Shown here one piece after another: positions 2,597 through 61,556 of a stretch of 64,000 nt of DNA (position 1 is the first letter of the stretch; each line of letters starts with the position of its first letter). A program made the translations under genes and the position numbers. The DNA comes from Pyrinomonas methylaliphatogenes. GTDB taxonomy: Bacteria > Acidobacteriota > Blastocatellia > Pyrinomonadales > Pyrinomonadaceae. Location of the stretch: the NCBI RefSeq assembly GCF_000820845.2, contig NZ_CBXV010000008.1:65001-129000 (forward strand). The letters run 5' to 3'. Below the pieces are notes generated by a model, which did not search any database, had not been told where the DNA came from, and was given only the letters and a program-made list of their open reading frames with translations.

Positions 2597-2631
2597 CTTG
2601 CGAAACACCGGTTGACGATCATGGGCCCGAT

Positions 2632-2717
2632 CTCGTCAAACGCTTCAACTCGCGTTTGGAGATCCTCTATGCGCAGACTAGATCTGCCTTTTCGCCGAGC
2701 TCGTCAAACGCTTCAAC
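2632..2717. repeat. 18-nt direct repeat pair between der and tgt
   Basis: An 18-nt sequence occurs at 2632-2649 and again, without mismatch, at 2700-2717, a spacing of 68 nt. The DNA between the copies is not itself repeated. Both copies lie in the 158-bp der-tgt gap, the nearer one about 35 bp upstream of the tgt start. It belongs to the spaced gene-boundary repeat pattern described in the findings. Confidence 0.8.
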
Positions 2718-28318: not shown

Positions 28319-28447
28319 ACTCCCTCGTCAAGGAAGGGACCAAGAAGATGCTCGCGCTAGTGGCAGCCTAGTGCGAAATCGCTCGCCCCTATTATCATCG
28401 CCATCGATCATCGTCATAGTGGTAGCCTAGTGCGAAATCGCTCGCCC
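28259..28447 (+). repeat. Echoes of the M20 3' end after its stop codon
   Basis: Two 30-nt copies with one mismatch lie at 28359-28388 and 28418-28447 (59-nt spacing). The first is preceded by a degenerate copy of the M20 coding end: 28334-28371 resembles 28259-28298 (about 75 nt away). Translated, the coding end KGIKKVIALAVAL matches EGTKKMLALVAA followed by a TAG. The rest of the 261-bp gap to tsaD holds an inverted repeat near 28490-28535 that may terminate both convergent genes. Confidence 0.65.
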
Positions 28448-38003: not shown

Positions 38004-39008
38004 ATGATCATCGAAGCGACAGCCCCAACACGCATCGACCTAGCTGGCGGCACGATCGACATCTGGCCGCTCTATCTCTTCCATCCCGGAGCTGTGACGG
38101 TCAATTTCGCCATCTCGCTTCAAGCCCGATGCCGCATCGAAACGCGCACGGACGCGCGCATCATCATCGAATCGCGCGACCGCGCCATCGCCTTCGAAAC
38201 CGATCTTCGTCAGATAGAGGAGTTGGCGCACGAACCTCGCCTTGAACTGCTTTCGAAGCTCGTCCACTTCTTTCGGCCTGAAACCGGCTTTCACCTGATC
38301 GCCGAAAGTCTCTCCCCACCCGGAGCTGGGCTCGGCGCATCCTCTTCGCTCGCCATCGCCTGCATCGGCGCGCTCAATCACCTTGTCGGCGGACGCTACC
38401 ACCCGGATCAATTCATTCAAATCGCCACCAACATCGAGACGACGGTGATCCGCGTGCCTGCCGGGGTGCAGGATTACTACGCCGCTTTTTACGGCGGGGC
38501 GAACTGCCTGCACTTCCGCCCCGATGGGATCGTGCGCGAGGAACTGAAGGTTGACGCCGCGGAGTTAGAGCGCCGTCTGCTCCTCTGTTATACGGGGGAG
38601 CCACACGTTTCCGGGATTAACAACTGGGAAGTCTTCAAACGCCACATCGATGGCGACGCGCGCCTCTTCGACCTCTTCGAAGGGATCAGAGATTCGGCCC
38701 GCCAAATGCGCGCGGCGTTGCTGGCAAACGACTGGACCGCCGTGCGCGAGACGATGCGCGCCTATTACCCTAAACGCAAACAGCTCGCGCCGAACATCAC
38801 AACACCGCACATGGACCAGCTTGTCGAAAAGGCTCTTGCTCATGGAGCGGAAGCGGCCAAGGTCTGCGGCGCAGGCGGCGGCGGATGCATCGTCTTTCTC
38901 TGCGGCGAAGGTCGCAAAGAGCGCGTCGCCGAGGCGCTGCGCGAAGGCGGAGCCAGCCTTCTCGCTTGGAGGTTCAGCGCCGAAGGCCTCACCGTGCGCG
39001 AGCTTTGA
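38004..39008 (+). CDS. GHMP-family sugar kinase
   Basis: The 334-residue product has the GHMP kinase motifs: motif 1 APTRIDLAGGTIDIWP, motif 2 PPGAGLGASSSLAIA (ATP phosphate loop, near residue 105) and motif 3 KVCGAGGGGCIVFL near residue 290. The layout fits D-glycero-D-manno-heptose-7-phosphate kinases and related sugar-1-kinases rather than isoprenoid kinases. No heptose gene is adjacent, so the substrate is open. A TAAGAT element lies at 37956-37961. Its stop codon is duplicated 66 nt downstream. Confidence 0.88.
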   Translation: MIIEATAPTRIDLAGGTIDIWPLYLFHPGAVTVNFAISLQARCRIETRTDARIIIESRDRAIAFETDLRQIEELAHEPRLELLSKLVHFFRPETGFHLIAESLSPPGAGLGASSSLAIACIGALNHLVGGRYHPDQFIQIATNIETTVIRVPAGVQDYYAAFYGGANCLHFRPDGIVREELKVDAAELERRLLLCYTGEPHVSGINNWEVFKRHIDGDARLFDLFEGIRDSARQMRAALLANDWTAVRETMRAYYPKRKQLAPNITTPHMDQLVEKALAHGAEAAKVCGAGGGGCIVFLCGEGRKERVAEALREGGASLLAWRFSAEGLTVREL

Positions 39009-39093
39009 ACGCAGGAACGAAAGCGACTTGAGCCGCGTCGGCGCGCTCAGCTACGTATGATCAGCGAGCTTTGAGCGCAGGAACGAAAGCGAC
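38998..39093 (+). repeat. Duplicated 3' end of the GHMP kinase gene
   Basis: A 30-nt segment at 38998-39027, which includes the last codons and TGA stop, recurs with one mismatch at 39064-39093. The spacing is 66 nt and the intervening 36 nt are unrelated. The second TGA (39072-39074) is in frame with the gene and no other stop intervenes. Confidence 0.85.
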
Positions 39094-46108: not shown

Positions 46109-46208
46109 GGGCGTCGAATGATCATCGACAGACGCGAAGTTGATCGAGTGCGGTTGGATCGAAATGGCCGTCCGCATGGGCGTCAAATGCCCATCAACAG
46201 ACGCGAAG
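46109..46208 (+). repeat. Duplicated start-codon region of the isomerase gene
   Basis: A 31-nt segment occurs at 46109-46139 and at 46178-46208 with four mismatches. The spacing is 69 nt, a multiple of three. Each copy contains an ATG followed by codons for M(I/P)I(D/N)RRE, so two starts are in frame with each other. Confidence 0.8.
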
Positions 46209-54075: not shown

Positions 54076-55188
54076 ATGTCTTCGTACTCGTTCATGCAAA
54101 AGACGCGCTCTTTCATGCGCTTCAACCGTCTGCGCGACCTCGTCTCGGACTCGATGGCCATCGACATGGGATCGGCTTCGACCATCATCGCCGTGCGGGG
54201 TCGCGGCATCGTCGTTGACGAACCCTCGGTCGTCGCCGTCAACAAAATCACTGGCGAGGTGGTCGCCATCGGGCGCGAAGCCCAGGAGATGTTGGGGCGC
54301 GAAGCGCGCGATGTGGCTCTGATCGCACCGCTGGTCGATGGCGTCGTCGCCGACTTCGAACGGACGCAGCAGATGCTCGATTACTTCGTGCGCAAAGCGC
54401 GCAGCGGATTTTCGCAGTTCAGCCGGCGCGCCATCATGAGCGTGCTGTCGGGAGTCACGCAGGTCGAACAACGGGCGCTGCTGGCCGCTGCCGAACACGC
54501 GCACATCGGGCGCGTCTACATGGTCGAAGAGGGGCTCGCCGCCGCCATCGGGGCCGGCATCCGCGTCGATGATCCGCACGCGGCGGCGGTGGTCGATATC
54601 GGCGCGAGCACGACCAACGTTGCGGTGGTCGCGCGCGGCACCATCATTCAATCCCACGCCGAGCGCATCGGCAGCTTCGATATCGATATGGCGATCATCG
54701 ATCGACTGCGCCGCTATCGTGGATTGATCATCGGCGAACCGACCGCCGAGAGGTTGAAGATCGAACTCGGCTCGGCCATCGAACCTAAGGACCCGGAACG
54801 ACGCCTCAACGTTCGCGGACGCGACGTGCAGACCGGCAGGCCCGGGGCGATCGATGTGACGGCAAGCGAGATCTACATCGTCACGCAGGCCATCGTGCGC
54901 AAGATCGCCGATGAAGTGCGCACCTCGCTCGCCGAACTGCAACCCGAGGTCGCCGCCGACATCTACGACCGCGGCATCATCTTAACGGGCGGCGGCGCGC
55001 TGCTCGAAGGGATGGCGCAGTACCTGCAAAAGGAGACGCAACTTGTCACGCGCATCGCCGACGAGCCGCGTTACGCGATCGTGCGCGGACTGGCCCAGTT
55101 ATTCGATGAACCGCTCCTGCTGCGGCGCGTGACGCGCAACGAACCGTTCCCGCTCCTCGGAGCTCAACCGAGCCCGATGGAGAGTTAG
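54076..55188 (+). CDS. MreB/Mbl-like actin-family protein
   Basis: This 370-residue ASKHA protein has MreB features: phosphate 1 AIDMGSASTIIAVRGRGIVVDEPSVVA, EVVAIGREAQEMLGR, PLVDGVVADFE, a phosphate 2 loop DIGASTTNVAV, EERLK-like AERLKIELG and the adenosine loop LTGGGALLEGM. The phosphate 2 loop departs from the usual DIGGGTT. No mreC or mreD follows, and the N- and C-termini are extended. It may be a divergent paralogue rather than the main shape determinant. The start follows GATGGG at close spacing. Confidence 0.85.
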   Translation: MSSYSFMQKTRSFMRFNRLRDLVSDSMAIDMGSASTIIAVRGRGIVVDEPSVVAVNKITGEVVAIGREAQEMLGREARDVALIAPLVDGVVADFERTQQMLDYFVRKARSGFSQFSRRAIMSVLSGVTQVEQRALLAAAEHAHIGRVYMVEEGLAAAIGAGIRVDDPHAAAVVDIGASTTNVAVVARGTIIQSHAERIGSFDIDMAIIDRLRRYRGLIIGEPTAERLKIELGSAIEPKDPERRLNVRGRDVQTGRPGAIDVTASEIYIVTQAIVRKIADEVRTSLAELQPEVAADIYDRGIILTGGGALLEGMAQYLQKETQLVTRIADEPRYAIVRGLAQLFDEPLLLRRVTRNEPFPLLGAQPSPMES

Positions 55189-55370
55189 CCTTTCAACTGG
55201 TTGGGTGAAACCGGTCGAAAGCGCGCAGCCCGTTCCAGTAGCTGGACGAGTTAGCCTTTCAACCGATGGGGTGAAACCTTTCGATCATTGCCGAAAGCTT
55301 GGCAATCTTAACGCTTGATCGGCTCTCAACTGATGTGGTGAAAACTTTCGATCTGCTCAGCAGAAAGCTT
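55182..55370 (+). repeat. Three-copy spaced repeat bridging the MreB-like stop and the M50 start
   Basis: Copy 1 (55182-55212) contains the MreB-like TAG stop. Copy 2 (55248-55278) matches it at 28 of 31 positions, 66 nt on, with an in-frame TAG. Copy 3 (about 55324-55370) resembles copy 2, extended to its AAAGCTT end, 67 nt on, and contains the first codons of the M50 gene. Confidence 0.8.
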
Positions 55371-56453
55371 CAGGTGGCGAGCGTGCGCGGGATACCCGTG
55401 CGCATCGACGGGCGCTGGCTCATCGTCTTCGCTTTGAGCGTCGTCGTCGTCGCCCTGAACTTCATGCGCGGGACGACGACGACGCGACTGGTGCGCGTCG
55501 ATGAAATGGCCGCTTGGGCGATCGGGATCTTTACGACCTTCATCCTCTTCCTTTCGATCTTCGGACACGAACTGGCCCATGCCTTGGTCGCGCGCGCCGA
55601 AGGGATCGAAATCGAGGAGATCATGCTCCATCCGTTTGGCGGGCTGGCGCGCCTGCGCCATGAGCCCGATGAACCTGCGGCAGAATTTCGCATCGCCATC
55701 GCTGGTCCAGCGTCGAATTTCCTCTTCGCGCTGCTCGCCTTCGGCGCGATGAGCGTCGCGGCCATTGGCCGCTTTTATGTCGCCGCCGCCGTCTTCTTCA
55801 TCATCGGATGGTGGAATCTGCTGATCGCGGTCTTCAACCTTTTGCCCGGATACCCGCTCGATGGCGGGCGCCTGCTGCGCGCCTTCCTCTGGCAGCGCAC
55901 CGGTCACTTGCACGAAGCCACACGCACGGCTTGTCTTGCCGGACAACTCATCGCCGCGGTCCTCGTCATCTTCGGCCTCTATTTCTATCTCCGCTTCGGC
56001 GACCCTTTCATGGGACTCTGGGCGATATTGGTCGGCCTCTTCCTCTGGGACGCTGCGCGCGCGGTGCTTCGAGGCCGACTCAATGCGCAAACTGTGGCCG
56101 ACGTCATGAGGCCGCCTTTGGCCATCGGTCCCGACCTTTCGATCAGCCAGTTCGTCGATCAGGTCCTGCCGTTTCATCGGCAGACGATCTTTCCCGTCGC
56201 GCGCGGCGGTTCCCTTTACGGGATGCTCGTCCTCGAAGATCTCAAGGGCTTGCCGCGCGAAAGCTGGCCACGGACGCGCGTCCGCGAAGCGATGCGCCCA
56301 GTTGAAGAGAAGCTCTTCATCGAAGCCTCTGCCCCGTTGTGGCGCGCCGCAGAGATCATGCGGCGGAACGGCATCGGCGCGCTCGCCGTCATCGATGCCG
56401 ATGGACATCTCGTCGGCTTCCTGGACCACACCCAGCGCAGAAAGCCCGATTAA
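55335..56453 (+). CDS. Site-2-type M50 metalloprotease with CBS domains
   Basis: This is an intramembrane zinc protease. It has the zinc motif FGHELAHAL and the third ligand in NLLPGYPLDGGRLLRA, within six hydrophobic segments. Two C-terminal CBS domains follow (VADVMRPPLAIGPDLS... and VREAMRP...), which may sense an adenosyl ligand. Targets are unknown; the class usually cleaves anti-sigma factors or signal-peptide remnants. The start is uncertain: tandem GTG codons at 55335 and 55338, or a TTG at 55299. It follows the MreB-like gene. Confidence 0.85.
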   Translation: MVKTFDLLSRKLQVASVRGIPVRIDGRWLIVFALSVVVVALNFMRGTTTTRLVRVDEMAAWAIGIFTTFILFLSIFGHELAHALVARAEGIEIEEIMLHPFGGLARLRHEPDEPAAEFRIAIAGPASNFLFALLAFGAMSVAAIGRFYVAAAVFFIIGWWNLLIAVFNLLPGYPLDGGRLLRAFLWQRTGHLHEATRTACLAGQLIAAVLVIFGLYFYLRFGDPFMGLWAILVGLFLWDAARAVLRGRLNAQTVADVMRPPLAIGPDLSISQFVDQVLPFHRQTIFPVARGGSLYGMLVLEDLKGLPRESWPRTRVREAMRPVEEKLFIEASAPLWRAAEIMRRNGIGALAVIDADGHLVGFLDHTQRRKPD

Positions 56454-61255: not shown

Positions 61256-61456
61256 AAACGGATCTTTGAGTATAAAAATCGCGTGCCGCTCTGTCAAATC
61301 CCACCGATCGCAGCTTACCACCGAGCTCCGAGAACACGGCCCGCCCCTCCCTCACAGGAGATAGCCCACTGGCTTTTCACTCGACCGCTTTCTTCGGGCG
61401 CAGCGACCAGCCCCGTTCAGCAGAGCGACGATTAGCGACGCGACCGCCGTCTATAG

Positions 61457-61550
61457 AACTTGCCGCCCAACGGGAGAACGCCCGTGCGCTGGTGCCAGCA
61501 TAGATTTTCCAGTCCCGTGAATTTGCCGCCCAACGGGAGAACGCCCGTGC
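61457..61550 (-). repeat. 31-nt direct repeat pair after the thioesterase gene
   Basis: A 31-nt segment at 61457-61487 recurs with one mismatch at 61520-61550, a spacing of 63 nt. Each copy contains a small hairpin (ACGGG/CCCGT). The nearer copy ends 6 nt past the thioesterase stop. The rest of the 301-bp gap to tRNA-Phe shows nothing recognisable. Confidence 0.85.
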
Positions 61551-61556
61551 CCTCAG

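Follow-up and report, generated by a model that had tools for sequence, protein, structure and literature searches.

Experiments, and a few natural cases, show that spacers can be integrated at off-target sites. Nivala, Shipman and Church reportedly observed duplication of the target and described a small number of natural examples, from Yersinia pestis and Sulfolobus islandicus. Non-canonical integration by Cas1-Cas2 (Nivala, Shipman and Church 2018) reportedly places spacers outside CRISPR arrays, as appears to be the case in the genome described here, which differs in holding well over a hundred natural units, of two size classes, in 44% of its sequence. For Cas1-Cas2 of Streptococcus thermophilus in vitro, off-target sites mimic the leader-repeat junction and a ruler sets the second cut (PMC6895254, available text); that work concerns type II enzymes in the test tube, whereas the present case concerns type I systems in a natural genome. 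Ectopic acquisition in S. thermophilus and S. mutans also puts spacers in an unusual place but, in the portions of those sources at hand, inside existing arrays, whereas the units described here lie far from arrays. In a literature search that left subscription papers largely beyond reach, we found no natural genome with such a class of units.

The window analyzed, a 64,000-nt stretch of the Pyrinomonas methylaliphatogenes genome, contains an array of three diverged copies, 66 and 67 nt apart (at 55182, 55248 and 55315), where an mreB-like gene meets an M50 protease gene (Table 1). Local alignment scores are 28 for copies 1-2, 24 for copies 2-3 and 15 for copies 1-3, the best of 3000 dinucleotide shuffles being 15, 14 and 13; in none of the three pairs did a shuffle equal the observed score. 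On this evidence the three-copy 66/67-nt array described in the first-pass annotation is real, and its reading of the parts was borne out: copy 1 contains the stop of the mreB-like gene (TAG, 55186-55188), copy 2 an in-frame TAG preceded by 21 sense codons, and copy 3 the M50 start region. A search pattern built from the array copies, and thus derived from the data, matched the three array places only in the window and nothing in 100 shuffles. The 20-nt core occurs at four other places in the genome, each with two mismatches, and a dispersed binding site was rejected because the core has nothing beyond such weak matches. Tandem Repeats Finder at its default threshold gave no entry for the array, because the copies are diverged and the repeat covers only part of each period.

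Table 1 Coordinates of the junction features and of further class units in the window
Feature	Position	Strand	Details
Class unit	2627..2717		Period 68
Class unit	28347..28447		Period 59, outside both period classes
Class unit	38998..39093		Period 66; spacer matches L169 over 32/36 nt
mreB-like gene	54076..55188	+	Pfam MreB_Mbl 1.2e-95; NCBIfam MreB subfamily; stop TAG in copy 1
R1, putative first target copy	55184..55213		30 nt by class ruler; likeness to copy 2 about 55178-55218
S1, putative first spacer, about 36 nt, unrepeated	55214..55249		Boundaries inferred from class
R2, putative second copy	55250..55279		Pairwise alignments
S2, putative second spacer, about 37 nt	55280..55316		Boundaries inferred
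R3, putative third and most diverged copy, holds M50 start	55317..55346		Pairwise alignments
M50 protease gene with CBS domain, GTG start	55338..56453	+	Pfam Peptidase_M50 1.3e-24 and CBS
Class unit	61456..61553		Period 63

The likeness among the focal copies spans 37 nt, which is more than 30. TGGA-GAG precedes the core in both copy 1 and copy 2, and beyond the core copies 2 and 3 share the 8-nt GAAAGCTT, which is common to S2 and to the M50 codons right of R3. Read in the M50 register, copy 2 gives VKPFDHCRKL against VKTFDLLSRKL of the M50 gene, and it thus carries a decayed version of the M50 start. The 8-nt match would fit a plain duplication as well, and the shared stretches and the M50-like reading of copy 2 speak for a rival origin, in which a junction segment of 66-67 nt was twice duplicated in tandem and then decayed, the other units of the genome also being products of slippage. 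Plain tandem duplication of the junction was our initial reading; it was dropped on account of the genome-wide class and the repetition of only about half of each period.

To place the junction among relatives, we surveyed 55 locus entries; 32 genomes, P. methylaliphatogenes included, have mreB upstream of M50 in the loci covered, and 20 entries yielded no pair. In the 31 other genomes the gap between the two genes is below 250 nt in 26 and larger in 5, and the 66-nt array is absent from the junction in all 31. The M50 start had been called ambiguous because of the repeat; this ambiguity is smaller than claimed, a start codon being aligned to GTG 55338 in 27 of 30 relatives (the exceptions are L015, L018 and L030), and by this alignment the start is best placed at GTG 55338. 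In the sister genome (G001) the junction is missing, as it falls between contigs. The junctions of L005, L008, L009, L013 and L042, among others, carry long inverted repeats, some of short phased units, unlike the focal array. In L026, L027, L028 and L029 a stretch resembling TGTGGTTTAATTTTA is conserved a few bases upstream of the M50 ATG and may be the gene's own promoter.

The implied reading of the array as a special link between mreB and M50 is not supported: 26 relatives have the same two genes adjacent and no repeat, which is the first half of what the annotation had named as refuting evidence, and units of the same geometry occur throughout the genome. These two observations also speak against the idea that selection maintains the copies for a regulatory role at the junction, for example as an RNA structure or repeated operator sites. 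A hairpin is possible in copy 1 (z -2.16), and TTTCA and TGAAA recur in the copies as half sites, but no pair shows two-sided change in the three copies, no Rfam family was found at the array, and the units elsewhere have other sequences; we consider such an element exceedingly improbable. An RNA motif, tried as a candidate, was rejected for want of an Rfam match and of two-sided pair changes. A regulatory effect may have been gained later by the array.

Direct repeats of the same general geometry are common in this genome. Of the 62 direct-repeat places that score at least 18 in a sample of 464 kb, 37 have a period of 55-78 nt, against two places of that score in total in shuffled sequence; in a further 391 kb, 36 of 57 fall in that period range, among them pieces of a native CRISPR array. 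We then counted 157 units, in which about 30 nt are repeated around an unrelated spacer, in 1,654,952 bp (44% of an assembly of sixteen contigs and 3,788,560 bp), taking at most one unit per 250 nt. Places where almost the entire period is repeated were left out, as was, by its position, the native array of contig C5. The scattered units have no sequence in common; the repeated part (R) varies with the place, and the majority have a single spacer (S). Within a unit the repetition is confined to about 30 of 66 or 36 of 72 nt, the remainder being unrelated even when the repeat is perfect, which argues against tandem duplication. A third copy is present in 9 of the 157 units, compared with 1 of 157 in the control, and the focal array is the second strongest of these.

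The units are placed mostly between genes. By the calls of a simple gene finder, 106 are intergenic, 33 lie across a gene edge and 18 are inside genes (139 of 157 not inside genes), whereas random places in a smaller sample are 10% intergenic, 12% at gene edges and 78% inside genes. The period is divisible by three in 14 of the 18 in-gene units, one of which lies at 46109-46208 of the window; these units are either in-frame survivors or ordinary protein repeats. Scaling up gives an estimate of 359 units for the whole genome, or fewer if the in-gene units are protein repeats. Identity between paired repeats in the two period classes ranges from 69 to 100% (14 perfect pairs), so that the ages of the units differ.

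Unit periods are bimodal, with peaks at 65-67 and 71-73 nt and one unit at 70; with class limits of 63-69 and 71-75, set after the histogram had been seen, 23 of the 157 units fall outside both classes. The genome has two Cas1 genes, one accompanied by Cas4 in a type I-B operon, the other fused to Cas4 (Cas4g/Cas1g). The native type I-B array has a repeat of 30 nt and periods of 65-68 nt, and the array beside the Cas4g-Cas1g fusion consists of 49 repeats of 36 nt and 48 spacers of 34-39 nt. Mean periods are 66.36 nt for the 66-class against 66.45 for the native I-B array, and 72.37 for the 72-class against 72.52 for the other native array. In high-identity units the median R lengths are 30 (n=45) and 36 nt (n=22; p=0.0023), equal to the native repeat lengths, and 30 (n=42) and 35.5 nt (n=20; p=0.012) once in-gene units are removed. 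The S medians are 36 and 37 nt (p=0.53), within the native spacer range of 34-39 nt. Repeat and spacer lengths of the scattered units thus equal those of the two native arrays, from which the units differ in having repeats that vary by place and mostly one spacer. Two sharp periods equal to those of two native arrays are not predicted by slippage.

The available part of the P. methylaliphatogenes K22 genome paper (PMC4644332) gives 16 scaffolds with CRISPRs at scaffold ends. In this assembly (G000), the end of contig C9 and the start of contig C5 both lie within one I-B array, and six degenerate I-B repeat copies are found in reverse orientation at C5:2138-2741. Two large genes precede the Cas4g-Cas1g fusion (L155:22-7661), one encoding a protein of 915 aa that matches no NCBIfam model, the other a 1634-aa helicase-like protein, for which no Cas3 model scored above cut-off.

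The outer edges of the repeats were also compared. In the 66-class, with R near 30 nt and edges read inwards, G is found at position -2 in 41 of 60 edges (p=2e-10), with weaker preferences for G at -3 and 0 and for T at 1 and 2; the motif is gone when the edge is shifted by three or four bases, and nothing comparable occurs on the spacer side of R. The native I-B array ends, read inwards, in GGGGG/GTTTT, presumably the leader side, judging by A+T richness and repeat orientation. In a comparison chosen after the motif had been seen, 56 edges of the 28 units of the 66-class outside genes match this I-B junction at 3.36 of 8 positions, against 2.07 expected (p=1e-13), while 56 edges of the 72-class match the I-B leader-repeat junction at 2.05 of 8. 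No clear motif was found at the 72-class edges.

Several other candidates for a recognized feature were rejected. Inverted repeats inside R have arms that average 3.77 and 3.80 nt, compared with 3.67 and 3.78 nt when R is shuffled; a motif over the whole of R is weak (EM totals 292 and 185, shuffled maxima 281 and 172), as is the resemblance between the whole of R and the native I-B repeat (z 2.2). A functional CRISPR array would share the conserved repeat of a cas-linked array, and in this the focal array differs: its repeat gives a poor alignment to that of the I-B array, which has no match in the window with up to three mismatches.

Five of the 157 spacers match elsewhere in the sample (44% of the genome) at E<=1e-4, compared with 0 of 157 for R and 0 of 157 for the flanks. 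Four of these matches are near full length (35/36, 33/37, 32/36 and 32/37), the likeness stopping where the spacer does, and the remaining match is partial. No constant motif beside the source was visible in six candidate sources, and three spacer pieces gave zero exact matches to viral contigs. For the native Cas4g/Cas1g spacers the best match in the sample is 18 nt (E 5e-4), which was not taken as evidence. The focal spacers have weak matches elsewhere (E 0.4 and 0.8), and alignment in one orientation gave no extension. Neither the edge motif nor spacers copied from elsewhere are predicted by slippage, and we consider duplication and slippage an unlikely origin of the array and of the other units. 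Repair of staggered breaks without CRISPR enzymes, in which overhang fill-in duplicates the target and filler DNA is captured, would likewise leave DNA copied from elsewhere between two copies of the target, but it predicts neither the fixed lengths of 30 and 36 nt nor the native-array periods and the likeness to the leader-repeat junction, and it appears very unlikely.

The sister genome, which has Cas1, contains five R-S-R units in 50.7 kb, and two relatives without Cas1 have two and three per 100 kb. None was found in 100 kb from each of the relatives G023 and G043, both with Cas1, nor in 50 kb of Escherichia coli K-12. The two relatives that have Cas1 and no units indicate that Cas1 alone is insufficient to produce the class. 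A search for empty sites gave no empty allele, the relatives being too diverged between genes and the sister assembly lacking the focal junction.

Taken together, we regard it as highly probable that the focal array arose by off-target spacer integration, in two insertions, and that the class is the work of two Cas1 integrases. We are surer of the genome-wide class than of the focal locus, because the likeness there exceeds 30 nt and integration does not account for the short match to the right of copies 2 and 3. The focal array would be an ectopic CRISPR-like unit of the form R-S-R-S-R. A Cas1-containing integrase, most likely the type I-B one of the genome, judged by period, would insert captured DNA of about 36 nt outside any CRISPR array, by two strand transfers with a stagger of about one native repeat (30 nt), so that the target is duplicated on both sides of the inserted fragment. 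The target would have spanned the short gap from the mreB stop to the M50 start, so that both genes stayed intact and the array came to overlap the end of one and the start of the next. A second insertion would have added the third copy; the greatest likeness is between copies 1 and 2, ahead of 2-3 and 1-3, which suggests that the mreB side is younger. The other scattered units would have arisen by the same process through the two integrases. We infer which enzymes acted, in what order the two insertions took place, and that the array is a by-product without selected function.

If integration is indeed the origin of these units, what looks like a gene start, a promoter or a short repeat array in such a genome may be a scar of integration. 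Off-target integration could then add DNA between genes and start new arrays, and the genome would keep a record of target rules and repeat-length rulers for two systems side by side. Units outside predicted genes amount to 9,322 nt, or 3.7% of the intergenic DNA in the sample, and CRISPR adaptation would therefore be a lasting source of new intergenic sequence. It seems likely that in this lineage two CRISPR integrases write spacers chromosome-wide, that sites with a second spacer behave as new arrays, and that adaptation provides both such sequence and a record, graded in age, of captured DNA.
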